Positions 1-16,935 of a DNA stretch of 64,000 nucleotides are shown in pieces. Where the stretch lies: the NCBI RefSeq assembly GCF_003991205.1, contig NZ_RXOZ01000006.1, positions 1 through 64,000 on the forward strand, read 5' to 3'. Source of the DNA: Georgenia sp. SYP-B2076 (GTDB lineage Bacteria > Actinomycetota > Actinomycetes > Actinomycetales > Actinomycetaceae). A model generated the notes under the pieces. That model had not been told where the DNA came from, searched no databases, and was given only the letters and a program-made list of their open reading frames with translations. Made by a program: the position numbers and the translations under genes. The first letter of the stretch is position 1. Each line of letters starts with the position of its first letter.

Positions 1-209
1 CCCGCGTTGATCAGGTCCGGGTCCACGTCCGCGTCGGCCGGGTAGGGCCCCACGCCCAGGATCCCGTTCTCGGACTGGAGCACCACCGCCCGGCCCGCCG
101 GGACATGGTTGGGCACCAGGGTCGGCAACCCGATCCCCAGGTTCACATAGCTCCCGTCGGCCAGCTCCAGGGCCGCCCGGGCGGCCATCTCCTGCCGGGA
201 CAGTGCCAT
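1..209 (-). CDS. 3-oxoacid CoA-transferase subunit B, N-terminal part (runs off window)
   Basis: This is the first 69 residues of the beta subunit of a succinyl-CoA:3-oxoacid (or 3-oxoadipate) CoA-transferase. The rest lies left of the window. The N terminus [16 protein letters not shown], then [15 protein letters not shown] and SENGILG, matches the SCOT-B/PcaJ family. The Glu of the ENG motif is the residue that carries the CoA thioester in this family. It starts one base after the stop of the alpha subunit, so the two are translationally coupled. Whether the acceptor is acetoacetate or 3-oxoadipate cannot be told from this fragment. The neighbouring BKACE gene, which would release acetoacetate, favours acetoacetate. 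Confidence 0.85.
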
Positions 210-210
210 C

Positions 211-1086
211 TCACGCCCCCCTCGTCGTCGTCGCGGCGCCGCCGCCGGCCGTGTCGGCCGGGCGGACGGTGCGCTTCTCGATCCGCTTCTCCACGTCCGG
301 GCCCACGACCACGACCCGGTGGACGTACACCCCGGGCAGGTGGACCTCGTCCGGGTCCAGCGCGCCGGGCTCGACGAGCTCCTCGACCTGCGCGACGCAC
401 ACCCGGGCCGCCATCGCGGCCAGCGGGGAGAAGTTCCGCGCCGCCTTGTTGAACACCAGGTTCCCGTGCCGGTCCCCCCGGACCGCGTGGACCAGGGCGA
501 AGTCGCACGTGATCGCCTCTTCCAGGACGAACTCCCGCACCCGCCCGCCCAGGTCGAACGAGCGCACCTCCTTCGGCGCCGACGCCACCGCCACCCCACC
601 CGCGCCGTCGTACCGGCGGGGCAGCCCACCCTCGGCCACCTGCGTGCCCACCCCGGTGGGGGTGAAGAACGCCGCGATCCCCGACCCGCCCGCCCGCAGC
701 TTCTCCGCCAGCGTGCCCTGCGGGGTCAGCTCCACCTCGAGCTCCCCGGCCAGGAACTGCCGCTCGAACTCCTTGTTCTCCCCCACATACGACGCCGTCA
801 TCTTCGCCAACCGCCCCGCCCCCAGCAGCCGGCCCAGCCCCCAGTCATCCACCCCGCAGTTGTTCGACACCACCCGCAACCCACCCGTCCCCTGCGCGAG
901 CAGCGCCTCGATCAGCGCCACCGGGTTGCCCGACAGGCCAAACCCGCCCACCGCCACCGACGCCCCGTCGAACACATCCGCCACCGCCTCCGCGGCCGAA
1001 CCCACCACCTTGTCGAGCCCGGGGCCCGCACTCGACCCGTCCGTGGACCCCGTCGCCCTGTGATCTGCATCTGTCATGGCATTCAT
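211..1086 (-). CDS. 3-oxoacid CoA-transferase subunit A
   Basis: Alpha subunit (291 aa) of a class I CoA-transferase that moves CoA from succinyl-CoA to a 3-oxoacid. The glycine-rich CoA-binding stretch [12 protein letters not shown] is near residues 45-56, followed by VVSNNCG and a late [17 protein letters not shown] block typical of SCOT-A/PcaI. The ATG is preceded by AGGAG at good spacing. The usual GFGLCGIPE motif is here GFGLSGNPV, a modest departure. It follows the binding lipoprotein gene by about 80 bp and is probably the penultimate gene of the HyuAB-BKACE operon. Role by context: activation of acetoacetate or a related beta-keto acid. Confidence 0.88.
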
Positions 1087-1169
1087 TCGTCGCTCCTGCG
1101 TGTGGCCAGTAGGTGACGCGGGTCGTGCCGCGCAGTTCGTGAGAGGTGAGTGGGGAGCCGTCGAATCGG

Positions 1170-2156
1170 TCAGGGCAGCAGGGATCCGACGTCGGCCTTG
1201 TTCTCGGTGATGCCCTGGCGCTGGGCGAGGTCGACGAGGAACTCGACGTCCTTGCGGTCGACGGTGTCCGGGAAGCGCGGCAGGACGAGCTTCTCGGCGA
1301 CCGTCGGGTCCACCTTCATGTAGCTGCCGAGGATCGCCCGGACCTTCTCCGGGTTGTCCTGCGCGAAGGCCTGCGCCTCGCCCATCGCGGTGGAGAACCG
1401 CTCGACGAGGTCGGGATCGGACTTCATCAGGGCGGCCGAGGTGAAGTAGGCGGCGATGAGGAGCGTGGGGCTCGTCTCGACGTAGTTGGACGCCAGGACC
1501 TTGTTGCCCTGCCCCTGCGCGATGGTGGAGAACGGCTCGACGACCCAGGCCGCGTCGACCTGCCCCTCCGCGAGCGCGGCGAGCATGTCCGGGAAGGCGA
1601 TCTCCACGAACTTGATCGCGTCGGGATCCCCGCCGGCCTTGGCCACGGTCTCGCGCACCGTGCTGTCGCCCACGCTCTTCATCGTGTTGACGGCCACCGT
1701 GCGGCCGGCCAGGTCGGCCGGCCCGGCGAGGTCGCTGTCGGCGGGCACGACGATGGCGGCCGTGTCCTCGCCGGCCACGCCGGTGGAGGCCGCGCCGGGG
1801 GCGACGATCGGGAGCTCGAGACCCCGGGAGTGGGCGCTGATGAGTGCGGGCGTGTTGGAGAAGCCAATCTGGAACTGGCCGCTGACCACGCCGGGGATCG
1901 TGGCGGCGCCGCCCTGACCGGAGTCGGTCAGCTCGAGCGTGAGCCCGTGCTCGGCGAAGATGCCCTCCTCGACACCCAGCCGGATCGGGGCGGTGTCGAC
2001 GATCGGGATGACGCCGACGGTGACGGTTTGAAGCTCCCCCGAGGCGCCGGTCGTCGTCTCGGCCGGGGACGTTACGGCCGGGGCCTCGGTGCCGGAGGAG
2101 CAGGCCGCGAGCAGGAGGGCGGCGGCGCCGGCCAGGGCCGCGAGGGTCTTACGCAT
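1170..2156 (-). CDS. NMT1/SsuA-type ABC substrate-binding lipoprotein
   Basis: Exported solute-binding protein of 328 aa. The chosen start (MRKTLAALAGAAALLLAACSSG) gives a perfect lipoprotein signal with lipobox LLAAC, and is preceded by AAAGGAC. A longer reading frame starts at 2231 with a 4-bp ATGA overlap on the BKACE stop, but it would put 25 residues before the signal and is rejected. The mature part has the features of the NMT1/TauA/SsuA family: VGVIPIVDTAPIRLGVEEG at the start of the domain, then GVVSGQFQIGFSN and a mid-protein VAVNTMKSVGDSTVR. No permease or ATPase gene is in this window, so its transporter is elsewhere or it works as an orphan. It is probably specific for an aromatic or keto acid related to the operon substrate. 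Confidence 0.88.
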   Translation of the reverse strand: MRKTLAALAGAAALLLAACSSGTEAPAVTSPAETTTGASGELQTVTVGVIPIVDTAPIRLGVEEGIFAEHGLTLELTDSGQGGAATIPGVVSGQFQIGFSNTPALISAHSRGLELPIVAPGAASTGVAGEDTAAIVVPADSDLAGPADLAGRTVAVNTMKSVGDSTVRETVAKAGGDPDAIKFVEIAFPDMLAALAEGQVDAAWVVEPFSTIAQGQGNKVLASNYVETSPTLLIAAYFTSAALMKSDPDLVERFSTAMGEAQAFAQDNPEKVRAILGSYMKVDPTVAEKLVLPRFPDTVDRKDVEFLVDLAQRQGITENKADVGSLLP

Positions 2157-2227
2157 GGGGGTCCTTTCGTCCGCAACGCTGCGGAGCGGGCGCCGGGCTG
2201 GACCCGGCCGGGAGGGAGGACGAACGG

Positions 2228-3172
2228 TCATCGGGCGGAGGCCTCGGCCGCGGGGACGAGGCTCGTGAGTCCGAGGATCTGCCGGGCCTCCTCGGGCGTG
2301 GCCACCTCATGACCGAGCTCGTGGATGAGGCGCACCGCCCGCTCGACGAGCTGGACGTTGGTGGCCAGCTCGCCGCGCCGGTAGTAGAGGTTGTCCTCGA
2401 GCCCGACCCGCACGTGTCCGCCGAGCAGGACGGCGTGGGTGATGGCGGGCAGCTGGTTCGCCGCGACGGCGGAGACGCACAGCTCGGCGCCCTCGGGGAG
2501 CTCGTCGACCATCTGGTGCAGGATGCGCGGGGTGTAGGGCAGCGCGCCCTGGAAGTTCCGGTCGAGGCCGAGGACGACGTTGACCCAGTACGGCTGGGCG
2601 TCGAAGCCCGCGTTGATGAGGCGGGTGGGTTCCTGCCGGATGTGGGCGGTGCTCATGACCTCCCACTCCGGCTTGATGCCGAGCTCCGTCATCCTGGCCG
2701 CGAGCTCGTCGCACTGGGCCGGGGTGGTGAGGTTGACGATCTCGCGCCCGCCGGCGGTGATGACGAAGGACTCGGCGTCGAAGGTCGCCATCTCCACGTG
2801 CGGGGCCTCGAGCCCGCGCAGCCGCTCGGTGAAGTCGATGCGGAGCTCGCCGCGCTCGTTCTCCTTGATCATGTCGCCGGAGATGCCGCCGCCGGTGGAG
2901 ATGTTGATGACGACGTCGGTGCGCGCGCGCACGGCCTCGTTGATCGCGCCGTAGACGTCGGCGCTGCAGGTGGCCAGGTCGTCCTCGGGGCGGCGCGCGT
3001 GGATGGCCGCCACCGAGGCGCCGGCCGCCACGCACGCGGCGATGTCGTCGGCGATCTCTTCGGGCTGCGTGGGCAGGTGCGGGTTCTGGGCCTTCGCGGC
3101 CATGCCCCCGGTCGGGGCGATGGTGACGATGACCTTGCGGGGCTTGACGTCCGCGGTCGTGGTGCGTGCCAT
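2228..3172 (-). CDS. Beta-keto acid cleavage enzyme (BKACE, DUF849 family)
   Basis: BKACE enzymes condense a beta-keto acid with acetyl-CoA and split the product into acetoacetate and a new acyl-CoA, using a metal-bound TIM barrel. The 314-aa length is typical. Seen: VIVTIAPTGG at the N terminus, the AIHARRPEDD segment (usually HxHxR; the first position is Ile-His-Ala here), VVINISTGGG after strand 3, and LCVSAVAANQLP and LGGHVRVGLEDNLYY near the C terminus, where Gly-Leu-Glu-Asp-Asn is a family signature. The usual HxH metal pair before the Arg reads H-A-R here, a point worth checking in structure. The gene lies 21 bp after hyuB and is followed by the binding lipoprotein. It probably acts on the product of the HyuAB carboxylase. 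Confidence 0.87.
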   Translation of the reverse strand: MARTTTADVKPRKVIVTIAPTGGMAAKAQNPHLPTQPEEIADDIAACVAAGASVAAIHARRPEDDLATCSADVYGAINEAVRARTDVVINISTGGGISGDMIKENERGELRIDFTERLRGLEAPHVEMATFDAESFVITAGGREIVNLTTPAQCDELAARMTELGIKPEWEVMSTAHIRQEPTRLINAGFDAQPYWVNVVLGLDRNFQGALPYTPRILHQMVDELPEGAELCVSAVAANQLPAITHAVLLGGHVRVGLEDNLYYRRGELATNVQLVERAVRLIHELGHEVATPEEARQILGLTSLVPAAEASAR

Positions 3173-3193
3173 GGGTGTGCCTCTCTTCGTTGG

Positions 3194-5452
3194 TCAGGCG
3201 TGCAGCGCGAGCTCGGCAGCCCGGCCGTCGAGGGACAGGTCCAGGTCGTCCAGCGGCTCCGTCCCCGCCAGGTGGACGTCCACCGCGAGGAGGTGACCGG
3301 TCACCGGACACAGCCAGCCCGTCACCGTGAGGTCCTCGTGGAGGGTCGCGCCCGCCCGCTCGGGCAGGTCGAGGGCGAGGCGCCGGGCGCCGCGCCGCCA
3401 CCGGGTCGACCCGGTCGCCAGGACCGCGCCGTCGACGGTCTCCACCCGCCAGGTGCCGTCGGTCCCCCGGATGGCGCGGAGCCGGTCGGAGAACGGCAGC
3501 CACCGCTCCCCCGCCCGCAGGCCCGCCGGCGGCAGGGCCGGGTCGAGGTCACGTCCCGTCTCCGGCACCTGGTCGGCGCCGATCCCCAGCCGGTCCGCCC
3601 GCGCCTGTCGCCGCAGCCGCGCGGTGGCCGCCCGGTCCCAGCCGGTCGCGCGCCCGCCCTCGGCGAGCGTGAGCACGACGCCGTAGCTGTCCCGTGCGGC
3701 CGCCGCGCTGACGACGCCCCGGCGCGCGTCCGCCAGCACGGCGTCGGGGTCGCGGTCGAGCGGGTCGCCGATGCCGCCGCCGCCCTGCCAGGTCACGGCG
3801 AAGACGTCCTGACCGGTGATCGGGAAGGCCCCCGGCTTCGGGCCGAGGTTCGCGAAGCGGGGATCGGCCTCGGTGCGCCCGCGGAGCAGGTCGGCCACGT
3901 GGGCGGACTCGGAGGAGTCCCGCATGATCCCCGTCGCGAGGGACTGCCTGATGAGCCCGCCGGGCAGCCCGCCGGAGAGCCCGGCGGAGTTGGGCACCTC
4001 GGCGCCGTGGGTCATGACGAGCGCCTCGGCCTGCGGCACGGAGATGGTCAGCGCCACCTCGGCCCCCAGGCCGCCGCGCTGCCGGCCGGCGCCGCCGGTG
4101 TCCTGCGCGAGCCGGCGGTAGAGATAAACCAGCGGCGTGCCGAGCTCGTTGACCTCGACGTCCGCGATGGAGGGGCAGGGCGCGTTGATGGGGCCCGCGG
4201 CGTCCTGGCCGTCGTGGCTCGCGAACGCACCGAAGCCGCCCGCGAGGGGGTCCATGAGGTGCAGCCCGAAGACCTCGCCGAACTGGTTGCGGCCGCTGAG
4301 GTTGAAGGTCGCCATCGTGCCGCTGCTGACCGCCTGGGCGCGGTGGGCGTAGGCCGGGGTCGCGGCGAGGAGCCGGTTGAGCGCGCCGGAGACGACGTTG
4401 CTGACCACCCAGACCGTCTCCACGGTGGCGCTGCCCACCGGGGCGGGCGGCACCGCCGTGCAGATCAGCCCGTCGGGGGCGACGATCTCCACCGGCCGCA
4501 GCAGCCCGTCGTTCCACGGGATCTCGAAGCCGAGCGTGGGGATGAGCGCCCCGGCGACCCCGCCGGTGAGGCCCGCCCGGGAGCAGTTGACGAAGCCGGG
4601 GGCCTGCCCGGAGGAGCCGGAGAAGTCCATGGTGAGCCGGTCACCATGCTTCGTCAGCACGAGGTCGACGGCGTAGAGCTTGTCCGTGTGGCCGTCGTGC
4701 TCGAGGAAGTCGCGGGTGCGCACCACGCCGTCGGGGATCTCGAGCAGGCGACGGCGCAACCTGGTCTCGGCGTCGTCGACCATGGCCGCCATGGCCGTCT
4801 GCACGACGTCGGTGCCGTACCGGCGGCACAGCTCGACGAGCCGCTCGGCCGCGACGTTGAGGGTGGCGATGAACGCGCGGATGTCCAGGCCGAGCTGGGC
4901 GGGCAGCCGTGAGGCGGACAGGATCATCTCAAGGACGTCCTCGCGCAGCTCCCCGCCGGAGACCAGGGTGACGGCGGGGATGCGCAGGCCCTCCTGCCAG
5001 ATCTCCGTGGCCTTGGGCGACCAGGAGGCGAAGTCCATGCCGCCGATGTCCGTCTCGTGGGCCATGACGCCGGCCCAGGCGACGAGCTTGCCGTCGACGA
5101 ACAACGGGGCGCACATCTGCAGGTCGTTCTGGTGCAGCGCCCCGACGAACGGGTCGTTGCCGACGATGCGGTCGCCGTCGCGCAGGGCGCGGCCGCTGCC
5201 GAGCAGGTGCCGGATCAGCGCCCCGACCGGCGGGGCCTCGAAGGTGACCTGGTGGCCCATGGTCGCGAAGGACCCGTCGGGCAGGTACAGGCCGGTGAAG
5301 AAGTCGCTGGCCTCGGTCACCGTGGGGCTGCCGCTGACGGACTGCAGCGCCAGGCGCATCTGGTCGGTGATGGCCACCAGCCGGCTGCGGACCACCTGGG
5401 CGATGACCGGGTCGGTCGTCGTGGCCTGGGCCGAGAGGTCGAGGGTGCTCAT
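3194..5452 (-). CDS. hyuB: Hydantoinase B/acetone-carboxylase-alpha-type subunit with C-terminal extension
   Basis: Member of the HyuB family (N-methylhydantoinase B, 5-oxoprolinase B, acetone and acetophenone carboxylase). Length 752 aa, against about 520-600 for a plain HyuB. The core up to about residue 600 has IVGNDPFVGALHQNDLQM, AHETDIGGMD, MDFSGSSGQAPGFVN and GGGGIGDPLDRDP, all diagnostic. The last 130 residues form an extra domain ending WLCPVTGHLLAVDVHL, which looks like the small gamma-type subunit of acetone/acetophenone carboxylases fused on. The start overlaps the hyuA stop by 4 bp, so the two are coupled and almost certainly form one enzyme. Substrate could be a hydantoin, a lactam or a ketone. 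BKACE and CoA-transferase downstream favour ketone carboxylation. Confidence 0.85.
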   Translation of the reverse strand: MSTLDLSAQATTTDPVIAQVVRSRLVAITDQMRLALQSVSGSPTVTEASDFFTGLYLPDGSFATMGHQVTFEAPPVGALIRHLLGSGRALRDGDRIVGNDPFVGALHQNDLQMCAPLFVDGKLVAWAGVMAHETDIGGMDFASWSPKATEIWQEGLRIPAVTLVSGGELREDVLEMILSASRLPAQLGLDIRAFIATLNVAAERLVELCRRYGTDVVQTAMAAMVDDAETRLRRRLLEIPDGVVRTRDFLEHDGHTDKLYAVDLVLTKHGDRLTMDFSGSSGQAPGFVNCSRAGLTGGVAGALIPTLGFEIPWNDGLLRPVEIVAPDGLICTAVPPAPVGSATVETVWVVSNVVSGALNRLLAATPAYAHRAQAVSSGTMATFNLSGRNQFGEVFGLHLMDPLAGGFGAFASHDGQDAAGPINAPCPSIADVEVNELGTPLVYLYRRLAQDTGGAGRQRGGLGAEVALTISVPQAEALVMTHGAEVPNSAGLSGGLPGGLIRQSLATGIMRDSSESAHVADLLRGRTEADPRFANLGPKPGAFPITGQDVFAVTWQGGGGIGDPLDRDPDAVLADARRGVVSAAAARDSYGVVLTLAEGGRATGWDRAATARLRRQARADRLGIGADQVPETGRDLDPALPPAGLRAGERWLPFSDRLRAIRGTDGTWRVETVDGAVLATGSTRWRRGARRLALDLPERAGATLHEDLTVTGWLCPVTGHLLAVDVHLAGTEPLDDLDLSLDGRAAELALHA

Positions 5453-7578
5453 GCCTGTCCTACCTTCACGTGGATGGTGCCGGCGTCGTCAGTGGTGGCG
5501 GTGCCGCCGGGCGGGACGACGACGACGCACCCGGGGAGCTGGATGAGGGCGGGGCCGGCGATCTCCTGGCCCGCGGCGGGCCAGTCGCAGCCGTAGACCA
5601 CTGTCTCCTCCGGCGCGTGGGGATCGTCGAACACGACCGGGCGGACGTCGCGGACCTCGAGCGGCTGGCCCGAGGAGGACGACGTCGACGTCGTCGAGCG
5701 CACGGCCGCCACGGCCCGCACCGACAGCACCTCGAAGCCGGCCTCGCGGAACCCGGCGCCCTCGCCGAAGAGCTTCTCGTACTCGCCCTCGAAGCGGCCC
5801 AGGAGCGAGGCCAGCGCAGCGACGTCGGGCGCGGCCTCGACCGCGATGTCGAGGTGGTGCGTCTGGCCTCGGTAGCGGACGGCCGCGGTCTGGGTGACGT
5901 CGGCGTGCGCCGCGTCGGGGAGGGCGCCCAGGGCACGCTGCTGGGCGTCCTCGAGGGCCGCCGCGAGCACGGCGACGTGCGCCGCCTCCGGCTCGGTGCC
6001 CGGCGAGAGCCGGAGGTAGCCCGTCCGTGAGGCGGTGGTCCGCAGGTCCGACGTCCCGGCGCCGAAGGCGGACTGCGCCGTGGCGGTGGCGGGCACGACG
6101 AAGCCGTCAAGGCCGAGCTCCCGGCACAGCTTCCACGCGTGCGACGGGCCGCTGCCGCCGCCCGCGACGAGGGTGAACTCGCGCGGGTCGTGGCCCCGCT
6201 CGATCGTCACGGCACGCAGCAGGTCGGCCATGGCGGCGTCGAAGACCTCCCGCACGGCGCGCGCGGCCTCGATGGCGGTCAGGCCCAGGGGATCGCCGAT
6301 CTTCTTGGCGAGCGTGGCGCGGGCCGCCTCGACGTCGAGGCGGATGCCGCCGCTGCCGAAGCGGTCGGGGTCGAGCACGCCGAGGACGAGGTCGGCGTCG
6401 GTCGTGGTGGGCTCGGTGCCGCCCTTGCCGTAGCAGACCGGGCCGGGGTCGGCCCCGGCGCTGCGCGGCCCGACGGTGAGGAGGCCGTTGGCCACGGCCG
6501 CGATCGAGCCGCCACCGGCGCCGATGCTGGCGATGTCGACGCTGGGCACGCGCATGTCCGCGCCGCCGAAGGTCACCTCCTCTCGCAGCAGCGGCGCGCC
6601 GTCGACCACGACGCCGACGTCGAAGCTGGTCCCGCCCACGTCGAGCGTGAGGATCTTGGGTCGGCGGAGGCGCACGCCCAGGGCCTGCCCGGCGACCACG
6701 CAGGACGCGGGCCCGCTGAGCAGGCCGCGCACGGGCGACGCGGTCAGGGACGAGGCAGGGACGACGCCCCCGGCGCTGGTGGTCATCATGATCGGCGCGG
6801 TCATGCCCAGGGCGTGCAGCGCGGCCTCGAGGGTGCCGAGGTAGCCGCCGGCGATCGGGCCCAGGGCCGCGTTGGCGACCGTGGTCGAGGCGCGGGCGTA
6901 CTCGCCCACGGTGGGCGCGATGTCGTGCGAGACGCTGACGAACGCGTCCGGGAGGATCTGCGCCGCCAGCTCGGCGAGGGCGGCCTCGTGGTCGGGGTTC
7001 TCCGTCGCCCAGAGCAGGCAGATGGCCACGGCCTCGACGTCCGCCTCACGCAGCGCCTCGAGGGCCTGGCGGGCCGAGCCTAGGTCCAACGGGGTGACGA
7101 TCTCCCCGGCCGGGTTGACGCGCTCCGTGACCTCGACGACGAGCTCGCGGGGCACCAGAGGCGCGGTCCGGCCGCGCAGGAAGTAGTTGCCGAGGTCGAG
7201 GCCCTGCAGGCCGGCGGTGCCGCGGCGCAGCCGCCCGATCTCGAGCACGTCACCGAACCCCAGCGTGGTGACGAGGCCGACGCGGGCGGTGCGCCCCGTC
7301 AGGAGGGCGTTGAGCCCCACGGTGGTGCCGTGGCCGAAGCGGGTGACCTGCCGGCAGAGCTCCTCGGTGCCCAGGCCGGCGGTGCGGGCGGCCAGGTGCA
7401 CCGCGTCGACGACGCCGGTGACGACGTCGGCCGTGGTGGGCGACTTGCAGACGTAGGACTGCCCGTCCGGACCGCGGAGCCACAGGTCGGTGAAGGTGCC
7501 TCCGACGTCGGTGCCCACGGCCCAGCCGGACGCCCGCGTCCCGTTGTCGGTCGCGGGTGCGTCAAGGATGGCGGTCAT
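5449..7578 (-). CDS. hyuA: Hydantoinase A/ketone-carboxylase-type ATPase subunit
   Basis: ATP-dependent subunit (709 aa) of the HyuA/acetone-carboxylase-beta family. The sugar-kinase-like nucleotide-binding fold is clear: GTDVGGTFTDLWL near residues 23-35, FGHGTTVGLNALLTGR, the second phosphate loop ILTLDVGGTSFDVGVV, and SIGAGGGSIA. The family hydrolyses ATP to phosphorylate a lactam, hydantoin, enol or bicarbonate. It is the first gene of a minus-strand operon (hyuA-hyuB-BKACE-lipoprotein-CoA-transferase A and B). An AT-rich promoter and a LysR operator lie within 170 bp upstream, so aromatic-responsive control is likely. Exact substrate is unknown. Confidence 0.87.
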   Translation of the reverse strand: MTAILDAPATDNGTRASGWAVGTDVGGTFTDLWLRGPDGQSYVCKSPTTADVVTGVVDAVHLAARTAGLGTEELCRQVTRFGHGTTVGLNALLTGRTARVGLVTTLGFGDVLEIGRLRRGTAGLQGLDLGNYFLRGRTAPLVPRELVVEVTERVNPAGEIVTPLDLGSARQALEALREADVEAVAICLLWATENPDHEAALAELAAQILPDAFVSVSHDIAPTVGEYARASTTVANAALGPIAGGYLGTLEAALHALGMTAPIMMTTSAGGVVPASSLTASPVRGLLSGPASCVVAGQALGVRLRRPKILTLDVGGTSFDVGVVVDGAPLLREEVTFGGADMRVPSVDIASIGAGGGSIAAVANGLLTVGPRSAGADPGPVCYGKGGTEPTTTDADLVLGVLDPDRFGSGGIRLDVEAARATLAKKIGDPLGLTAIEAARAVREVFDAAMADLLRAVTIERGHDPREFTLVAGGGSGPSHAWKLCRELGLDGFVVPATATAQSAFGAGTSDLRTTASRTGYLRLSPGTEPEAAHVAVLAAALEDAQQRALGALPDAAHADVTQTAAVRYRGQTHHLDIAVEAAPDVAALASLLGRFEGEYEKLFGEGAGFREAGFEVLSVRAVAAVRSTTSTSSSSGQPLEVRDVRPVVFDDPHAPEETVVYGCDWPAAGQEIAGPALIQLPGCVVVVPPGGTATTDDAGTIHVKVGQA

Positions 7579-7726: not shown

Positions 7727-7743
7727 TATCAATGATGTCGATA
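7727..7743. promoter_or_regulatory. LysR-type operator copy 1 (hyuA operon)
   Basis: TATCAA-N5-TCGATA, an inverted repeat with one mismatch and the T-N11-A core of LysR-type operators. It lies just upstream of the hyuA promoter and overlaps the stop codon of the LysR gene at 7729. Four further copies of the same motif lie at 9852, 12273, 13239 and 14533. Confidence 0.65.
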
Positions 7744-8655
7744 CGCGGGGGCCAGCTCGCGGGCAACGGCGGCGGCCCGCCGCCGCAGCCAGCGATGCCC
7801 GGGATCGTCGTCGACGTGCGCGCCCCAGATCATCACCATGGTGATGGGCCCGAGCTCCACGGGCGGCTCGAGGAGCCGGATCCCCGCCTGGTCGCGGATC
7901 ATCAGCCCGAGGCGTTCCTGGATGTGCATGACCATCCGGGTGCCGCGCAGGAGGAACGGGGCCACGAGCGGGGCCTGGATGGTCAGGTGGGTGTCGCGCA
8001 GGATGCCCCGCGCCTCGAGCCGCAGCTCGGCGGAGGAGGGCAGCGCGCCGATGTTGACCGCGAGGTAGGGCAGGGCGCTGAACTGCGCAGACGGGAGCTC
8101 CTCCCCGACCTCCGGGTGATCGGCGTCGACGGCGCAGACGTAGCGGTCCGCGAAGAGCACCTCGTGCGGGTAGGTGGCGTGCTCCGGGAAGACCTCCTTG
8201 GGCATGATCAGCAGGTCTGTCTGGTGCCGGCGGAACTGCTCGGCGTAGTCGTCCCGGGTGGCGTTGACCTCGAAGGAGACGTGCGGCGCCTCCTGCGCGA
8301 GCCGCACGAGCAGGGGCCGCAGGAAGAGCGTGGAGACGTAGTCGTTCGCGGTGAGGGTGAACGTGCGTCGCGCGGTGGCGGGGTCGAACTCGTCCCGGGC
8401 GGCAAGCAGCGCCTCCGTCCGCGCCATGATGTCGCGCAGCGGGACCACGAGGGACTCCGCGAGGGGCGTCGGCGCCAGCGTGCGGCCGCGGCGCACCAGG
8501 ATCTCGTCGCCGAAGACCTTCCGGAGCCTGCCCAGCGTGGCGCTCATGGCGGACTGGCCCACGCACAGGCGGTCCGCCGCCCGGGTGACGCTGCGTTCGT
8601 CGAGCAGCGCGTCGAGGGCCACGAGGAGGTTCAGGTCGATGCGGTGCAGGTCCAT
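7729..8655 (-). CDS. LysR-family transcriptional regulator (NodD-like), copy 1
   Basis: LysR regulator of 308 aa. The winged helix-turn-helix is at residues 1-65 (NLLVALDALLDERSVTRAAD, then GQSAMSATLGRLR), followed by a linker helix and a periplasmic-binding-like effector domain. The start is set at MDLHRIDLN, preceded by AAGGGAAGACGG; the frame extends 21 codons further upstream without family similarity. It is a close relative of the regulator at 12,284, sharing the ALDALL-ERSVTRAA core. It lies between the extradiol dioxygenase and the hyuA operon and is read towards hyuA. Likely role: effector-dependent activation of the catabolic promoters carrying CATCGA-N5-TCRATG. Confidence 0.88.
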   Translation of the reverse strand: MDLHRIDLNLLVALDALLDERSVTRAADRLCVGQSAMSATLGRLRKVFGDEILVRRGRTLAPTPLAESLVVPLRDIMARTEALLAARDEFDPATARRTFTLTANDYVSTLFLRPLLVRLAQEAPHVSFEVNATRDDYAEQFRRHQTDLLIMPKEVFPEHATYPHEVLFADRYVCAVDADHPEVGEELPSAQFSALPYLAVNIGALPSSAELRLEARGILRDTHLTIQAPLVAPFLLRGTRMVMHIQERLGLMIRDQAGIRLLEPPVELGPITMVMIWGAHVDDDPGHRWLRRRAAAVARELAPAYRHH

Positions 8656-8749
8656 CCGTCTTCCCTTGTCGGCGGGCGCTGTCCGCAGGATAGGGCGCTC
8701 ACGAGCCGGCCCCCGCACGCCGGTGGCGGGCGGGGGCCGGGCCGGTCCC

Positions 8750-9748
8750 TCAGGAGTTGATCAGCGCAGCCCGCATGTCCGGGTGCACGCCGTCCTCGGT
8801 GGCCGTCAGGCCGTCGGCCGGCGGGAAGGACTCGAAGATGGACTGCGGCGTCGGGGCGTTGCGGTAGAAGTTGTTGCCGCCCAGGCCGGGGGTCCAGGTG
8901 TTGGCCTCCCAGTCGGGCACGTAGTTCCGGTACCCGCCGGAGTTCAGCTCCACCCGCAGCCCGCTCGGCTCGCGGAAGTACAGGTACTGCTGCTCCCCGA
9001 TGCCGTGGACCCCGGGCCCGAACTCCATCGGGGTGCCGTTCTCCATGAGCACGTCGGCGCTGATGAGCAGCTCCTCGTGAGTATCCACCCAGAACGCGAT
9101 GTGGTTGACCCGGCCGGCGCGCGCGGAGTGGTCCAGCACCACGGCGAGGTCGTGGGACTTCTCGTTCGTGGTCAGGACCGAGAAGACGCTGACGTTGGTG
9201 TCGTCGAGCTGGGTGCGGGCCATGAGCCGGAAGCCGAGGACGTCCCGGTGCCAGGCGGCGAACCCGTCGACGTCGGTGCTGGCGATCGTCACGTGGTCCA
9301 GGAACCGCGGGGCGCCCGCGTGGCTGGAGCGCTTCTCCGGGCGGTCGGGGAAGATCGACGCGTGCTCGGCGTCGGCCTCGAAGCGGTCGACCTCCCAGAA
9401 CAGCCGGATCGGGTGGCCATACGGGCCCTCGAACTCGAACGCCCGGCCGTAGCCCGGGCCGCCGTCGGACCAGGCGCCCTCGACGCCCACGTCTCGGACG
9501 CGGCCGGCGGCGGCCTCCAGCGCCTCGGCGCTCGTGGTGCGCCACGCCATGCGGGTCAGGGCGGGCTCCGGCCCCTCGGTGACGATCAGGCTGTAGCGGT
9601 AGTGGTCGCCCCAGCAGCGCAGGTACACGTTGCCGTCGATGCGGTCGACGGCCCGCATGCCGAACTGCTTCTCGTAGAACGCGGCCGACGCCTCGACGTC
9701 CGGGCTCGCAATCTCGAGGTGGGACAGGTGGGACAGGAGCTTTTCCAT
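8750..9748 (-). CDS. Extradiol ring-cleavage dioxygenase (VOC superfamily, catechol 2,3-dioxygenase type)
   Basis: Type I extradiol dioxygenase (332 aa) that opens a catechol next to the diol using Fe(II) and O2. Two VOC modules are visible: residues 6-125 (HLSHLEIASPDVEASAAFYE) and about 145-280. The catalytic second module keeps the ligand set: His in DHVTIAS, His in NHIAFWV and Glu in LRVELNSGGY. The start ATG has GGAGG 7 bp upstream. The protein runs about 40 residues past the second module, as in homoprotocatechuate-type enzymes. A LysR operator lies 104 bp upstream. It should act on the catechol made by the Rieske dioxygenase and the dihydrodiol dehydrogenase. Exact catechol unknown. 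Confidence 0.88.
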   Translation of the reverse strand: MEKLLSHLSHLEIASPDVEASAAFYEKQFGMRAVDRIDGNVYLRCWGDHYRYSLIVTEGPEPALTRMAWRTTSAEALEAAAGRVRDVGVEGAWSDGGPGYGRAFEFEGPYGHPIRLFWEVDRFEADAEHASIFPDRPEKRSSHAGAPRFLDHVTIASTDVDGFAAWHRDVLGFRLMARTQLDDTNVSVFSVLTTNEKSHDLAVVLDHSARAGRVNHIAFWVDTHEELLISADVLMENGTPMEFGPGVHGIGEQQYLYFREPSGLRVELNSGGYRNYVPDWEANTWTPGLGGNNFYRNAPTPQSIFESFPPADGLTATEDGVHPDMRAALINS

Positions 9749-9908: not shown

Positions 9909-10922
9909 TCAGCGTCCGGTGTCGAACTTCGCGATGTCGACCGGCTTGGACACGAGCGCGTCGTCGTGCGCGAGCCCGGCGAGGGTGCCGAGCGCCTCGA
10001 GGTTGATGGCCGTCGAGAACCGGTCCATCCGCACCCGCTCCGCGAGCGCGGGGTCCATCTCGAGCTTGTCGACGAGGACCTCGCGCAGTCCGGCCTCGTC
10101 CTCGCCCGCCGCCTCCAGCACCTCGGTCAGGGCCGTGGTGAAGCGCTCGAGCAGCTCGGGATCCTGGTCTGCCGCGGTCACCATGACCTGGGTGGACAGT
10201 CCCGGCGCGGACTCGGCGAAGTTCCAGGAGACGACCTGTGCGCCGTTGCCCTGGGCGATCGTGATGAACGGCTCGACCTCCCAGATCGCGTCGACGTCGC
10301 CGGCCTCGAGGGCGCGGATCATGTCCGGGTAGCGGATCTCGACGAAGTCGATCTCCGCCGGGTCGCCGCCGGCCGCCCGGACGGCCTCGCTGATGGTGAG
10401 GGTGCCGGCGGAGCTCAGCGTGTTGACCGCGACGGTGTGCCCGGCGAGGCCGGCAGCGTCGGTGATGCCCGAGTCTGCCTTGGCGAGGACCGCGGAGATG
10501 TCCTCGCCGCCGCCCTCCCACGCCTGGCTGAAGCCCGAGGCGACCTGGACGGGGACACCGGCGTCGAGGGCGACCATCATGGAGACGGAGTTGAGCGTCA
10601 CGAAGTCGACCTCGTGGGCGAGCGCGGCGGCGACCATCGTCTCGCTGCCGACGCCCGTGTCGACCGTGACGTCGAGCCCGTGCTTCTCGAAGATGCCCTG
10701 GTCGACGCCGTACCAGAGCGCGGACGTCGCGACGATGGGGAGGGTGCCGACCGTGACCGGCACCATCTCCCCGTCCTTCGTGGCCGCCGACGTGGTGGAC
10801 GCCGCGGGCTGGGTTGTCGGGTCGCTGCTCGCCCCGGAGGTGCCGCAGGCGGCGAGCATGAGCGCGGCCAAGCCGAGGACGGCGGCGCGGCTGGTCATCG
10901 TGAGGCGCGGAGAGGTCGACAT
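9909..10922 (-). CDS. NMT1/SsuA-type ABC substrate-binding lipoprotein, second copy
   Basis: Solute-binding lipoprotein of 337 aa. The start at 10922 (MSTSPRLTMTSRAAVLG) is chosen because TAGGAG lies 6 bases before it; an ATG 15 bp upstream lacks such a site. The lipobox is LMLAAC. The mature protein parallels the one at 1170: VGTLPIVATSALWYGVDQG, ALAHEVDFVTLNSVSMM, VAVNTLSSAGTLTISEAV and IDFVEIRYPDMIRALEAGDVDAIWEVEPF. The two are clearly paralogues with diverged ligand pockets. Again no permease or ATPase gene is nearby. It follows the alpha/beta hydrolase gene by 88 bp and is probably co-transcribed with it from the promoter near 12,273. Confidence 0.87.
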   Translation of the reverse strand: MSTSPRLTMTSRAAVLGLAALMLAACGTSGASSDPTTQPAASTTSAATKDGEMVPVTVGTLPIVATSALWYGVDQGIFEKHGLDVTVDTGVGSETMVAAALAHEVDFVTLNSVSMMVALDAGVPVQVASGFSQAWEGGGEDISAVLAKADSGITDAAGLAGHTVAVNTLSSAGTLTISEAVRAAGGDPAEIDFVEIRYPDMIRALEAGDVDAIWEVEPFITIAQGNGAQVVSWNFAESAPGLSTQVMVTAADQDPELLERFTTALTEVLEAAGEDEAGLREVLVDKLEMDPALAERVRMDRFSTAINLEALGTLAGLAHDDALVSKPVDIAKFDTGR

Positions 10923-11010
10923 GGTGCTCCTAGTCATGGAGGATCCCCCGGGGCGTCGTCGCCACGGGTGGTCGTGCGGGTGCGGGTGCGGGTACGGCAG
11001 CGGCCCGGCG

Positions 11011-12153
11011 TCAGAGGGTCTCGGACACCCAGTCGGCGATGAAGCTGGTGGCGACGGGCTGGTTGTCGGCGCTGACGTGCTCGACGCCGCCCTCGCGCCG
11101 GGTGAAGATCTTCAGCTCCCGTTTGGGGCTGTTGACGGCACCCTCGTACTGGGCGTGGGCGTAGTCGAGCGGGATCTGCCGGTCGTTCTCCCCGTGCGTG
11201 ACGAGGAAGGGCACGGTGATGTTCCCGACGACCCCGACGAGGGTGACACTCGGCGCGAAGCTCATGAACTCCTCGAGGGAGTTTTTGCCCCACACCCACT
11301 GGACGTGCTCCCAGTAGTGCGGGACGGGGTTCTCGCCCTCCCGCTCGAGGCGCCGGCGCTGGAGCTCACCCCAGTTGTAGTTGGCGCCCCAGGCGACGCA
11401 GACGGCGAACCGCTTCTCGAACGCCGCGGCGCGCGGCGCGTAGTAGCCGCCGAGGGACCAGCCCATCACGCCGATGCGGTCCGGGTCGACGTCGGCACGG
11501 CCCTGGAGGTAGTCGACGCACGCCGCGCCCCAGCGCTCGCTCTCCGGGAAGGCGGTCAGGCCGCGCAGGCGCAGCGCACCGCCGGTGCCGGGGTGGTCGA
11601 CCATGAGGGTGGACACCCCGCGACGGGCGAGCTCCTGGCCGATGCCGGACCAGTAGATCATCTCCTTGGTGCTGTCCAGGCCGTTGAAGTGCACCATCAC
11701 CGGCGCCGGGCCGTCCGTGCCCCGCGCGCGGACGAACAGCGCGGGCAGCGTGGTGCTCTCGTAGGGCACCTCGACGAGCTCACAGTTGTCCCGCCCCAGG
11801 CGCACCGACCGCTCGAAGGCATCGAGCATCTTGCGGTACGCCTCCGTCCGGGGTGCGAAGTCGCGGGCCTGCATGCGCTCCGCCACCTGGTAGTAGATGG
11901 CCGCGCGGCGGAGCCGGGTGGCGGCGCTGAGCGGCCGGCCGGCCGCCTCGTTCTCGTCGGCGAGCTCGACCTGCCGGTCGGCGACCGTGCACCAGGACCC
12001 GAAGAAGTCCTCCGTCCCCGGCTTCTCGCCCGTCCCGGCCGCGTCGAGCAGCGGGCGGCACGCCTCGAGGATCTCCTCGATCTGCCCGCCGCTGCTCAGG
12101 GCGATGTTGGCGGACAGGTTCCAGACGTACTTGTCGGGGAAGATCTCGAACAC
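11011..12153 (-). CDS. Alpha/beta hydrolase of the pseudooxynicotine-hydrolase/FrsA-like type
   Basis: Alpha/beta hydrolase (380 aa) with a helical N-terminal cap of about 130 residues. The core shows VMVHFNGLDSTKEM, DHPGTGGALRLRG, the nucleophile elbow GWSLGGYYAPRAA, an acid in HGENDRQIP and a His in EHVSADNQP, giving a complete Ser-Asp-His triad. This architecture is that of 2,6-dihydroxypseudooxynicotine hydrolase and relatives, some of which break C-C bonds in 1,3-diketone-like substrates. The start is GTG with an AGAGAGG site. A LysR operator lies 120 bp upstream. Likely role: hydrolysis of the ring-fission product or a later 1,3-dioxo intermediate; a simple esterase remains possible. 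Confidence 0.78.
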   Translation of the reverse strand: MFEIFPDKYVWNLSANIALSSGGQIEEILEACRPLLDAAGTGEKPGTEDFFGSWCTVADRQVELADENEAAGRPLSAATRLRRAAIYYQVAERMQARDFAPRTEAYRKMLDAFERSVRLGRDNCELVEVPYESTTLPALFVRARGTDGPAPVMVHFNGLDSTKEMIYWSGIGQELARRGVSTLMVDHPGTGGALRLRGLTAFPESERWGAACVDYLQGRADVDPDRIGVMGWSLGGYYAPRAAAFEKRFAVCVAWGANYNWGELQRRRLEREGENPVPHYWEHVQWVWGKNSLEEFMSFAPSVTLVGVVGNITVPFLVTHGENDRQIPLDYAHAQYEGAVNSPKRELKIFTRREGGVEHVSADNQPVATSFIADWVSETL

Positions 12154-12272: not shown

Positions 12273-12289
12273 CATCGATGCGGTCAATG
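12273..12289. promoter_or_regulatory. LysR-type operator copy 3 (alpha/beta hydrolase)
   Basis: CATCGA-N5-TCAATG, T-N11-A core, central TGCGG as in copy 2. It lies 120 bp before the hydrolase and overlaps the stop codon of the LysR gene at 12284, just as copy 1 overlaps the other LysR stop. Confidence 0.65.
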
Positions 12290-13216
12290 CGAGCCGCCTG
12301 CGGTGACCTCCGCCGCCAGCTCGAGGAGGCGGCCGCGGAGCCACTGGTGGCCGACGTCGGCGGTGTGCCGGGACGTCCACACCATGACCTCCTGCAGGGC
12401 CACGAGCGGCATCGGCGGATCAAGGAGTCTCAGGCGTGCCTGCTCGGCGAGCAGCCGGCCCAGGCGCTCGTGGATGAGCATGATCAGCCCGGTGCCGCGG
12501 AGCAGGAACGGCGCCACGACGAAGGACTGCGCGGTGACCTGGAGGTTGCGGGGGATCTGCTGCTGGTCGAGCTGAGTCTCCGGCAGGCCGATCAGGGCGC
12601 CCGCGCGGTAGGCGAGGTACGGCAGCGCGCTGAACTGCTCGACGGTGATCACGTCGCCCACCTCGGGGTGGTCCCGGTCGACGGCCACGAGGTACCGGTC
12701 CGCGAACAGCGTCTTGTGCGGGTAGCCGACGTCGGCCCCCAGCAGCTCCCGCGGGAGGATCAGCAGGTCGGTCTCGTTGCGCCGCAGCGCGTCGGTGAAC
12801 CCCACGGGGTTGATGGGGAGGATGTTGACCCGGACGTTGGGCGCCTCCTCGTTCAGGCGCTCCAGGAGGGGCCGGAGCAGGACGAGGGCGATGTAGTCGC
12901 TCGCGCTGATCGTGAAGGTGCGCTGGTCTGTCGTCGGGTCGAAGTCCGTGCGCACCGCGAGCACGGACTCGACGATCGACAGCGCCTCACGGACCGGCGC
13001 GGCGAGGGACTCGGCCAGCGGCGTGGGCACGAGGACGCGGCCCTGGCGCACCAGCAGCGGGTCGTCGAAGAGCCGCCGCAGCCGGGCCAGGGTCGAGCTC
13101 ATGGCCGACTGGCCGATCATCAACCGCTCGGCGGCACGCGTGACGCTCCGCTCGGCGAGCAGCGCGTCGAGCGCGACCAGCACGTTGAGGTCGACATTCG
13201 CCAGTTTCTCCGACAA
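12284..13216 (-). CDS. LysR-family transcriptional regulator (NodD-like), copy 2
   Basis: LysR regulator (310 aa) divergent from the flavin monooxygenase. The start is set at a TTG (13216) because AAGGAG lies 5 bases upstream. A second in-frame TTG 18 bp further out has no such site. The winged HTH reads NVLVALDALLAERSVTRAAE and GQSAMSSTLARLRRLFDD, and the effector domain follows from about residue 90. It resembles the LysR at 7729 throughout, so the two probably arose by duplication. The 115-bp divergent spacer to the monooxygenase holds operator copy 4, the classic arrangement for a LysR gene autoregulating and activating its neighbour. Confidence 0.88.
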   Translation of the reverse strand: MSEKLANVDLNVLVALDALLAERSVTRAAERLMIGQSAMSSTLARLRRLFDDPLLVRQGRVLVPTPLAESLAAPVREALSIVESVLAVRTDFDPTTDQRTFTISASDYIALVLLRPLLERLNEEAPNVRVNILPINPVGFTDALRRNETDLLILPRELLGADVGYPHKTLFADRYLVAVDRDHPEVGDVITVEQFSALPYLAYRAGALIGLPETQLDQQQIPRNLQVTAQSFVVAPFLLRGTGLIMLIHERLGRLLAEQARLRLLDPPMPLVALQEVMVWTSRHTADVGHQWLRGRLLELAAEVTAGGSH

Positions 13217-13238
13217 CGTGACTCCTTCTTTCAAGGTG

Positions 13239-13255
13239 CATCGATCCGGTCGATG
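13239..13255. promoter_or_regulatory. LysR-type operator copy 4 (divergent lysR / flavin monooxygenase)
   Basis: CATCGA-N5-TCGATG, the only perfect inverted repeat of the five copies and the best model of the consensus. It lies 23 bp before the LysR start and 77 bp before the monooxygenase start. A second half-site-like GATG-N5-CATC follows at about 13252-13264, as expected for an activation site next to a recognition site. Confidence 0.7.
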
Positions 13256-13331: not shown

Positions 13332-14504
13332 ATGACGCCTGGTCAGACTTCCCTGGTCATCGGTGCGGGGATCGGCGGCCTGGGTGCCGCCGTCGCCCTG
13401 AGGCAGCAGGGTATCGACGTCGACGTCGTGGAGATCAAACCGGACGACGGCGTGGTCGGTGTGGGCATCAACCAGCCGGGCAACTCCCTGCGCGCGCTGG
13501 ACGTGCTGGGGGTGCTCGAGGAGTGCCTGGCCGTGGGGTACCAGTTCGACAGGAACGAGCACTTTGACTGGCAGGGCCGGCAGATCCTCGTCACGCCGTG
13601 CTCGCTCGGCACCGACCGCGTGCCGCCGAACAACGCCATCGCGCGGGCCGACCTTCACCACATCCTCGGTGACGCCGCCCGGCGTGCCGGGGCGCGCGTC
13701 GCGTACGGGGTGGGCGTGGCGGACCTCGTCGACGACGGCGACGGCGCAACCGTCACCTTCACCGACGGGCGGGTCGGGCGCTACGACGTCGTGGTCGGCT
13801 TCGACGGGATCCGCTCCCCGATGCGCCGGCGGCTCTTCGGGGAGGCGGCCGAGCCGGAGTACACCGGCTTCGCGGTCTGGCGGGTCACGCTCCCTCGCCC
13901 CGCCGAGGTCACACACACGATGCTCTTCCACGGCGACCGCTCCAACACCGGGGTCATCCCGCTGTCCGAGGACCACATGTACCTCCTGCACGTCACCGCC
14001 GAGCCGGAGGACGCCCGGTACGGGCCGGCCGACCTCGCCGCCCTGCTCCGGCAGCGCCTCGCCGGCTACGGCGGCCTCGTCGGCCGGCTCCGGGAGTCGC
14101 TGCCGGACGACGGCGTCGTCTACAGCCCGATCAGCGAGGTCCACCTGCCCGCGCCGTGGCACAAGGGCCGGGTCATCGTCCTCGGCGACGCCGCCCACGC
14201 CTCGGCGCCGAACCTCACCCAGGGCGCCGCCATGGCCCTCGAGGACGCCGTGGTCCTGGCCGACGAGCTGCGGCGCGACCGTCCGGTCGAGGAGTCACTG
14301 GCCGCGGTGTCCCACGTGCGGTTCGCCCGCACGAAGCTCGTCCAGGACGTCTCGCACGGCATCCTGGCCACCGAGATGGCGATCACCGCCGACCGCCTCG
14401 ACGACTTCGCCGCCAACCTCCGCGAGCACCTGCCCGGACAGGCAGCGTTCGTCGAGTCCCAGCTCAACGCACCGTTCCGCCTCGCCGACCCCGCGTCCCT
14501 CTGA
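13332..14504 (+). CDS. FAD-dependent aromatic monooxygenase (group A)
   Basis: Single-component flavoprotein hydroxylase (390 aa) of the salicylate/6-hydroxynicotinate monooxygenase type. Seen: the Rossmann GxGxxG as VIGAGIGGLGAAVALRQ at residues 8-24, the DG motif GFDGIRSPMRRR, and the GD motif VIVLGDAAHASAPNLTQGA followed by the MALEDA helix. Such enzymes hydroxylate, or hydroxylate with loss of CO2, a phenolic or N-heteroaromatic acid using NAD(P)H and O2. The ATG has GGAGAGGG upstream. The gene is divergent from the LysR gene and separated from the Rieske genes by operator copy 5. The final substrate is unknown. Confidence 0.85.
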   Translation: MTPGQTSLVIGAGIGGLGAAVALRQQGIDVDVVEIKPDDGVVGVGINQPGNSLRALDVLGVLEECLAVGYQFDRNEHFDWQGRQILVTPCSLGTDRVPPNNAIARADLHHILGDAARRAGARVAYGVGVADLVDDGDGATVTFTDGRVGRYDVVVGFDGIRSPMRRRLFGEAAEPEYTGFAVWRVTLPRPAEVTHTMLFHGDRSNTGVIPLSEDHMYLLHVTAEPEDARYGPADLAALLRQRLAGYGGLVGRLRESLPDDGVVYSPISEVHLPAPWHKGRVIVLGDAAHASAPNLTQGAAMALEDAVVLADELRRDRPVEESLAAVSHVRFARTKLVQDVSHGILATEMAITADRLDDFAANLREHLPGQAAFVESQLNAPFRLADPASL

Positions 14505-14549: not shown

Positions 14550-14702
14550 CCGGGCATCACGATTCATTTGTTCCTCCCATGTGACCCGGCTCGTAGGGTC
14601 GAACCACCCAGCGCCCGGCACACGCCGATACACCGCCCGGACGCGAACCGAGTACCGATCCCGGACGCCGCCGGTGCACCCAGTCAAAGGAGACAGCGGG
14701 AC

Positions 14703-16696: not shown

Positions 16697-16935
16697 GCGA
16701 GACCAAGGCCGTGGCCGCTGCGCAGGTCGCCGTCCGCCTGGACACTTCCAAGTGCCGCGCCTACGGCATCTGCGTGGGCATCATGCCCGACGTCTTCGAC
16801 CTGCCGAAGGGAAGCCCGGTCGCGGTGCTCCTCAAGGACGTCGCCGACGGCGAGGACCTGACGGACCTGGAGGAGGCGGTCTTCAACTGCCCTGCCTCCG
16901 CCATCTCCCTGGCACGGCAGGAGGACCACGAATGA
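16693..16935 (+). CDS. Ferredoxin of the [3Fe-4S] type
   Basis: Small electron carrier (80 aa) with the pattern C-x5-C ... C-P (CRAYGIC, then FNCPASAI). This is typical of actinobacterial single-cluster [3Fe-4S] ferredoxins; the fourth Cys of a [4Fe-4S] cluster is replaced by Gly-Ile. Starts with GTG overlapping the beta stop (GTGA) and overlaps the reductase ATG, so all four proteins are coupled. It should carry electrons from the reductase to the Rieske centre. This replaces the Rieske-type or plant-type ferredoxin of most proteobacterial systems. Confidence 0.88.
   Translation: MSETKAVAAAQVAVRLDTSKCRAYGICVGIMPDVFDLPKGSPVAVLLKDVADGEDLTDLEEAVFNCPASAISLARQEDHE

Follow-up and report, generated by a model that had tools for sequence, protein, structure and literature searches.

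A compact operon in Georgenia sp. SYP-B2076 may carry out the carboxylation of an aromatic ketone and the cleavage of the resulting beta-keto acid. It lies in a stretch of 64,000 nucleotides (contig NZ_RXOZ01000006.1, positions 1 to 64,000; hereafter the window), and comprises HyuA, HyuB, a protein of the beta-keto acid cleavage enzyme (BKACE) family, a substrate-binding lipoprotein (SBP1) and the subunits A and B of a 3-oxoacid CoA-transferase (SCOT). The leading reading, tentative and of slightly less than even confidence, is that an aryl ketone is carboxylated to aroylacetate, which then gives aroyl-CoA and acetoacetate. HyuA and the HyuB with a gamma-like tail would form an ATP-dependent enzyme producing aroylacetate, a beta-keto acid, from an aromatic methyl ketone and bicarbonate. 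HyuA would phosphorylate the ketone enol and/or bicarbonate, and the metal site of HyuB would join them. From aroylacetate and acetyl-CoA, the BKACE-type protein would release free acetoacetate and form aroyl-CoA. The acetoacetate would then be taken to acetyl-CoA by SCOT and a thiolase, perhaps with the help of an ADP-forming CoA ligase encoded just past the contig break. The ring would be degraded by the products of the neighbouring Rieske, dehydrogenase, extradiol and hydrolase genes (Table 1). The overall route is plausible and is predicted from sequence; both key enzymes are branches of known families with predicted activities.

The gene set had been proposed in an earlier note on this DNA, and domain searches bore out its genes and their places, all on the minus strand. 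The note had counted both SCOT subunits. Subunit A is complete; subunit B is present as its first 74 residues, which lie outside the interval 211 to 7,578 given for the set. It is truncated by the end of contig C7, with which the window starts. HyuA and HyuB overlap by 4 bp, BKACE follows 21 bp after HyuB, and SBP1 overlaps BKACE by 4 bp. The gap from SBP1 to CoA-transferase A is 83 bp, and CoA-transferase B overlaps A by 14 bp. CoA-transferase A passes its family model, with acetoacetate or 3-oxoadipate as candidate substrates.

The arrangement is kept in the genus. BKACE was found in five of nine genus genomes (six copies), and these five also have a HyuB of at least 80% identity (six copies). 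hyuB and BKACE are linked in 6/6 copies and adjacent in five. In the sixth, L027, they stand about 4 kb apart in the order HyuA-HyuB-SCOT A-SCOT B-acetyl-CoA acetyltransferase-spacer-BKACE, so that CoA-transferase A and B and a thiolase lie between them; the extradiol group was not seen in the 20 kb read there. Each of the six copies has a single HyuA in the stretches read. The copies are not independent because the genomes are close relatives. The gene grouping is not due to chance. Beyond HyuA, the copies L022, L024, L025 and L026 all keep the extradiol dioxygenase, the second binding lipoprotein (SBP2), the FrsA-like hydrolase and the second LysR-type regulator (LysR2); LysR1 is present in three of the four and SBP1 in two. 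The FAD monooxygenase, Rieske, ferredoxin reductase and dehydrogenase genes come next in L023, the only copy whose sequence was taken that far out.

Beyond the genus, Nonomuraea wenchangensis has a related run, with HyuA 71%, HyuB 69%, BKACE 58%, Rieske 60%, FrsA-like hydrolase 59% and ferredoxin reductase 45% identical to those of the window, and an extradiol-like gene (29%) at its head. Its short-chain dehydrogenase (30%) resembles that of the window at the family level, orthology not being established, and SCOT A was not found in this locus. Streptomyces sporangiiformans has SCOT A/B (66/74%), HyuA in broken frames and a broken BKACE, with no HyuB match. Locus L175 has HyuA pieces without a HyuB match. 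The gene order, for which the earlier note had suggested a search in other genomes, recurs in the genus, with the related run in Nonomuraea. A partial gamma-tailed HyuB adjoining an oxalocrotonate decarboxylase-like gene was also seen in the single-contig genome of a congener (L213, 9,326 to 10,819); it looks decayed, and no HyuA was found in the 19 kb read around it.

The genes past the contig break were traced through the relatives. An ADP-forming acyl-CoA synthetase of about 690 residues follows BKACE or SBP1 in L022, L024, L025 and L026. The window genome has a relative of it (86%) on contig C32, 598 bp short of the contig end, and the stretch in between contains the end of a thiolase, 83% identical to the L027 thiolase over 150 residues. 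Contig C5 ends in a second SCOT A-B copy that is broken at the same point, its DNA being 94% identical over 1018 bp. Because of these contig-end remnants and the common break point, the true order across the unjoined contigs is likely SBP1-SCOT A-SCOT B-thiolase-CoA ligase. Replacement of SCOT by the ADP-forming CoA ligase was considered and rejected, since the window genome has both. SCOT A is present at 81% identity or more in all nine genus genomes, which makes the window copy look like a duplicate recruited to the operon.

HyuA and HyuB have the ATP motifs and the D/H/D/H metal site of the HyuAB superfamily. The motifs DVGGTFTD, LDVGGTSFD and GADPGP are found in HyuA, and the metal ligands D50, H107, D110 and H132 of HyuB, located by alignment with CapB, are kept and are invariant in 10/10 rows. 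The catalytic residues of CapAB, as described in PMC8453981, are kept as well. Among PDB sequences HyuA matched N-methylhydantoinase (363 bits), CapA (344), ApcC (284) and AcxB (219). It reached no NCBIfam equivalog cut-off, the scores being 466 of 1000 bits for CapA and 297 of 1500 for ApcC.

Three trees were computed. The HyuA tree had 55 rows with four PDB anchors, and its rows spanned at least 400 residues between the first and last aligned query position; the HyuB core tree had 46 rows, no PDB rows and a corresponding span of at least 380 residues. The concatenated tree was a quick one of 49 rows, with no PDB rows and one HyuA per Apc locus; it left out L213 (HyuB only), L085 and L093, and L081 yielded no HyuAB. 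In the HyuA tree, clades were formed by Apc (100/99), Acx (100/100) and the hydrolases with CapA and N-methylhydantoinase (100/99). The window clade (100/100), joined by L075 (92/97), lies outside all of them. In the HyuB tree, the window belongs to a third clade of 14 rows (99/91), apart from the hydrolases (100/100) and from Apc plus Acx (100/99). This third clade holds the gamma-tailed HyuBs outside Acx (window type, L213, L075, L095, L096 and L223), along with L222 and L093, two rows in which no tail was recognised. In the concatenated tree, a group linked to meta-cleavage genes is the sister of the window clade (SH-aLRT 99), and L095, L096 and L223 group weakly with Acx/Apc. Labels assigned in advance from the type of operon proved mistaken in three cases: L212 grouped with Acx, and L222 and one row of L093 joined the third group. 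An assignment of the window HyuAB as Apc, Acx or hydantoinase is not supported by the trees. The firm clustering with hydantoinases or oxoprolinases, which the earlier note had named as fatal to its proposal, did not occur, and HyuA and HyuB are both outside the solved-hydrolase clade. We know of no assayed member of the third clade.

Two further HyuAB loci came to light in the trees. A Pleomorphomonas pair annotated apc3/apc4 (L076, 1,877 to 8,749) adjoins a 6-hydroxynicotinate reductase gene; its Apc name looks wrong because it falls among the hydrolases. In an Actinomycetes metagenome-assembled genome (MAG; L212, 4,960 to 20,560), an Acx-clade HyuA-HyuB occurs with a canonical HxH BKACE, and SCOT A/B lie about 9 kb on; this is possibly an independent assembly of the same gene set.

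The hydrolases have a two-gene operon and no gamma; here there are two genes, but with a gamma-like tail fused to HyuB. HyuB is 752 residues long, versus 538–685 in 12 hydrolase-clade HyuBs measured from the aligned start. Relatives with a gamma domain and both Cys pairs in the tail align nearly to its end: L075 in one piece to residue 740 (tblastn) and L018/L213 to residue 739 (blastp). Six actinobacterial loci (39–41%) align to HyuB residues 738–744, and their tails keep the Cys. A hidden Markov model (HMM) of five fused-gamma tails was run against 48 HyuBs, and gave the window 15.2 bits (E 4.7e-5). In the shuffle control 5 of 2000 sequences were reported, the best at 4.5 bits and none reaching 5, and no hydrolase-clade HyuB tested scored above 2.5 bits over the whole sequence. 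Direct profile comparison was weak, with a pair E of 0.019 for the genus tails alone against standalone gammas (9 of the 14 later used) and 0.013 with the fused tails included; the case therefore rests on the bridging relatives. What is left of a gamma subunit like that of acetone and acetophenone carboxylases appears to form the end of HyuB, a feature newly described here. The gamma subunit is found in Acx and Apc and in no hydrolase of the family, and its direct catalytic role is doubted, according to the accessible part of PMC5214803. Acx-clade HyuB-type subunits with a fused gamma also occur at L084, L085, L086 and L090 (79–101 bits with the standalone-gamma model), a fusion separate from that of the window clade.

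Several results weigh against the carboxylation of an aryl ketone. The first concern HyuAB. HyuA and HyuB are outside both the Acx and Apc clades in all three trees, HyuA is on the hydrolase side of Acx and Apc (100/98), and a single clade of the window type and the hydrolases was not rejected (approximately unbiased test, p 0.182). Neither a second HyuA (Apc-alpha') nor an Apc-epsilon gene was seen in the operon. The standalone-gamma HMM and PF08882 gave no window match, and the tail has lost three or four of the four Cys, one being left in the window and none in L027 and L142. Also, a hydrolase could yield the same beta-keto acid. HyuAB would then open a cyclic beta-keto lactam or lactone, such as 2,4-dihydroxyquinoline or 4-hydroxycoumarin, in an ATP-driven reaction to aroylacetate; BKACE and SCOT would act as before, no CO2 would be fixed, and the heterocycle would enter by way of the two NMT1-type binding proteins. 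Aroylacetate would thus be reachable by two chemistries, either by carboxylating an aryl methyl ketone or by hydrolysing a cyclic beta-keto lactam or lactone, the latter chemistry being our own suggestion. The NMT1-type binding proteins are present, the Rieske/Hca-like and FAD-monooxygenase genes could suit a bicyclic heteroaromatic, and the characterised two-gene HyuAB enzymes in the accessible parts of PMC5214803 and PMC8453981 are hydrolases. On the other hand, the best trees place HyuA and HyuB outside the solved-hydrolase clade, the hydrolase-clade HyuBs tested have no gamma-like tail, and no partner gene for such a route was seen beside the BKACE subfamily elsewhere. Ring opening by hydrolysis is a close rival, though less likely than not, and is retained because HyuA is on the hydrolase side. 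Carboxylation is favoured because of the gamma-like tail and the carboxylase-type partners of the BKACE subfamily, few as these are.

An altered metal site marks the subfamily to which the BKACE belongs. It is 53–62% identical to plasmid proteins of Variovorax, Rhizorhabdus, Novosphingobium, Caballeronia, Sphingomonas and Agrobacterium, several of which adjoin aromatic-degradation genes, and about 43% identical to the rest. The canonical zinc ligands, as given for BsfD in the accessible part of PMC12871164, are His48, His50 and Glu247. The window protein is without one zinc His of this His-x-His plus Glu set, which weighs against the leading reading. In 58/58 rows of at least 49% identity, Ala replaces the first zinc His and Cys occupies position 69; the other sampled BKACE rows have the His in 63/63 and Cys69 in 0/63. 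The Ala56/Cys69 signature is one change on the tree, and with these columns masked the subfamily is still one side of a branch (SH-aLRT 100). Different chemistry has precedents, since DUF849 groups G6 and G7 are reported as not BKACE, G6 being decarboxylating (accessible part of PMC4922564), and BsfD itself performs another reaction (PMC12871164, accessible part). With the first His replaced in every row, the BKACE-type protein could be such a decarboxylase or have another activity. This is very unlikely, in that the second His, the Arg and the Glu of the site are kept in 58/58 rows, where Trp170 is also invariant, and the acetoacetate-handling genes adjoin BKACE. The invariant Cys69 might serve as the replacement zinc ligand of a BKACE that cleaves aroylacetate. 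VceA of the acetovanillone pathway, taken up below, is presumably a DUF849 protein too; the passages on VceA that were consulted do not name its family.

The neighbours of BKACE genes were scanned over a range of 10 kb at 80 loci among the matches listed, 47 of the subfamily (two identical) and 33 others, to which the following counts refer. A carboxylase-type gene lies within range at only 6/47 subfamily loci, a further point on the negative side: HyuA and HyuB at three, HyuA pieces alone at one and a biotin-carboxylase set at two identical loci. The 33 others have HyuAB at four, HyuA pieces at none and a biotin carboxylase match at one. HyuAB is thus not enriched near the subfamily (4/47 vs 4/33). 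A thioesterase like that of L131 is within range at 12/47 subfamily loci vs 0/33 others. At L131 and L150 (Sphingomonas/Sphingobium), a biotinyl protein, a biotin carboxylase, a carboxylase domain, a HAD phosphatase, the thioesterase and a UPF0261 protein stand beside the subfamily BKACE; L150 and L151 are one and the same sequence of 20,888 bases. This set resembles hpeCBAD of the Hpe loci in content, a likeness drawn by gene content and not by sequence. The UPF0261 (Tm-1-like) protein (L131, 15,939 to 17,171, and L150) occurs in bisphenol-named sphingomonads, and the Hpe loci have a kinase in its place. In a Methylibium MAG (L169), a subfamily BKACE lies about 2 kb from an Apc-type HyuAB whose ApcC, 91% identical to the solved ApcC, is on the opposite strand.

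The sister HyuAB group has another setting. In 7/7 sister loci (L075 and L237–L242), HyuA-HyuB occurs with a LigB-type extradiol dioxygenase, a dienelactone hydrolase and a class II aldolase, and the same loci encode two meta-cleavage-hydrolase-like proteins (Pfam was run on L075 only). The six actinobacterial ones came from a survey of 394 genomes of the class, in which seven passed E 1e-120, that of the window included. L237–L242 are from actinobacterial genomes and L075 is from a Niveispirillum plasmid; two of the loci have SsuC-type ABC permeases. None of the seven has a BKACE in the 15–26 kb read, which also counts against a joint route. HyuAB and BKACE might share the operon and act on different intermediates, HyuAB on one from ring fission or a heterocycle and BKACE on a beta-keto acid from side-chain oxidation. 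The sister loci without BKACE would suit this, as would a 3-hydroxyacyl-CoA dehydrogenase-like gene within 10 kb at 23/47 subfamily loci, though it is found at 11/33 others too. Such a division is clearly unlikely in view of the 4- and 21-bp spacings and of the joint presence or absence of HyuB and BKACE in the genus, and no 3-hydroxyacyl-CoA dehydrogenase-like gene was found in the Georgenia ruanii locus L133.

Taken with these points, the three-step inference of the earlier note is supported in part. The acetoacetate handling fits (SCOT A/B and the acetyl-CoA acetyltransferase of L027), and the gamma-like tail and the carboxylase-type neighbours of the BKACE subfamily agree with it. It is weakened by the position of HyuAB outside Acx/Apc, by the lost tail Cys and zinc His, and by the sister clade lacking BKACE. 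The proposed phylogenetic comparison was likewise two-sided, with HyuAB outside the hydrolase clade and also outside Acx/Apc, and HyuA towards the hydrolases.

Known systems resemble parts of the proposed route. Acetophenone carboxylase (Apc) of Aromatoleum aromaticum, with its benzoylacetate-CoA ligase, shares the HyuA/HyuB homologues, ATP sites, metal residues and expected beta-keto acid product. However, it has four or five genes, apcABCD(E), two HyuA-like subunits, separate gamma and epsilon and its own clade, and its route proceeds by CoA ligase and thiolytic cleavage rather than BKACE in the accessible parts of PMC5214803 and PMC4729919. Acetone carboxylase AcxABC of H. pylori has alpha, beta and gamma parts, and SCOT and thiolase consume the acetoacetate; it differs in a separate gamma gene with four conserved Cys, its own clade and acetone as substrate, and no BKACE is named in the accessible part of PMC2244623. 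The hydroxyphenylethanone pathway (Hpe/Acv with VceA/VceB) also leads from an aryl ketone through an aryl beta-keto acid to an aryl acid. Acetovanillone is phosphorylated and carboxylated in a biotin-dependent manner, which gives an aryl beta-keto acid, and in SYK-6 VceA/VceB follow downstream; a kinase, a biotin carboxylase and a phosphatase are used there, and VceA/VceB are functional analogues of HpeE/F (PMC9618137, accessible part). CapAB, N-methylhydantoinase and 5-oxoprolinase are two-part HyuAB enzymes, and the top NCBIfam score of HyuA is with CapA, below the cut-off. The CapAB/N-methylhydantoinase clade differs in having no gamma-like tail detected and is separate (100/99 for HyuA; 100/100 for HyuB, no PDB rows). 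BKACE/Kce (DUF849) has the fold family, second His, Arg and Glu in common with the window protein, which differs by Ala for the first zinc His, Cys69 and Trp170. In the ARO microcompartment loci of Actinobacteria, HyuAB adjoins a ring-opening dioxygenase; these differ in their 2-aminophenol pathway, and no BKACE is mentioned in the accessible part of PMC10470539.

The earlier note knew of no description of the gene set as one pathway. The open literature searched did not yield the pairing of HyuAB with BKACE as such: among the papers listed, none described BKACE together with hydantoinase, acetone carboxylase or acetophenone carboxylase, nor were "beta-keto acid cleavage enzyme", hydantoinase and CoA transferase described together. 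For the logic of the route the statement was too strong, since acetovanillone carboxylation (PMC9618137) and acetone carboxylase with SCOT and thiolase (PMC2244623) are published.

The features read in this part of the window are collected in Table 1. Elsewhere in the window (23,978 to 25,962), two adjoining phosphotriesterase-family genes stand beside an FAD monooxygenase and a hydrolase, unmatched in the relative's region L023.

Table 1. Genes and domains of the operon and its neighbourhood (positions in the window; ORF, open reading frame).
Feature	Positions	Strand	Basis
3-oxoacid CoA-transferase subunit B, residues 1-74	3..224	-	TIGR02428 91.6 bits over residues 9-74, below whole-protein cut-off; CoA_trans
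3-oxoacid CoA-transferase subunit A (SCOT/PcaI family)	211..1086	-	TIGR02429 237 bits, cut-off 128.5
SBP1, NMT1/SsuA-type substrate-binding lipoprotein	1170..2231	-	PF09084 101.6 bits; lipobox-like LAAC seen by eye
BKACE-family protein, Ala56/Cys69 subfamily	2228..3172	-	PF05853 270 bits, cut-off 24.8
HyuB, 752 aa, Hydantoinase_B and C-terminal gamma-like tail	3194..5452	-	PF02538 414 bits
Gamma-subunit-like tail of HyuB, about residues 675-752, 1/4 Cys left	3197..3430	-	fused-gamma HMM 15.2 bits
HyuA, 709 aa, ASKHA ATP-binding subunit (Hydant_A_N, Hydantoinase_A, Hydant_A_C)	5449..7578	-	PF01968 257 bits
LysR-type regulator (LysR1)	7729..8718	-	PF00126, PF03466
Extradiol dioxygenase, catechol 2,3-dioxygenase-like	8750..9748	-	TIGR03211 246 bits, below cut-off 320; PDB matches are catechol 2,3-dioxygenases
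SBP2, second NMT1/SsuA-type binding lipoprotein	9909..10937	-	PF09084 71.7 bits
FrsA-like alpha/beta hydrolase	11011..12153	-	PF06500 32.5 bits; nearest solved, 2,6-dihydroxypseudooxynicotine hydrolase, 2jbw 88 bits
Second LysR-type regulator (LysR2)	12284..13234	-	PF03466, PF00126
FAD-dependent monooxygenase	13341..14504	+	PRK06847 388 bits, cut-off 372, residues 146-490 of longer ORF 12912-14504; start picked manually
Rieske ring-hydroxylating oxygenase alpha, HcaE-like	14562..16100	+	PF00355, PF00848; HcaE model 219 bits, below cut-off 830; start picked manually
Ferredoxin reductase, HcaD-like	16800..18146	+	PF07992; HcaD model 223 bits, below cut-off 450; start picked manually
Short-chain dehydrogenase, HcaB/dihydrodiol-dehydrogenase-like	18216..19064	+	PRK06200 280 bits, below cut-off 330

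The window HyuAB is placed in a third clade of a family in which the members studied so far either add CO2 to ketones or open lactams, and it is tied to a putative beta-keto acid cleaving partner. The chemistry of this clade bears on the annotation of "hydantoinase B/oxoprolinase" genes in aromatic clusters, and the BKACE subfamily offers a case for asking if DUF849 activity survives the replacement of a zinc ligand. It is possible, though somewhat doubtful, that the third, gamma-fused HyuAB class is a biotin-free aryl ketone carboxylase coupled to the BKACE subfamily with the changed metal site. If true, this would be a compact, ATP-driven route from an aryl methyl ketone and CO2 to aroyl-CoA and two acetyl-CoA.

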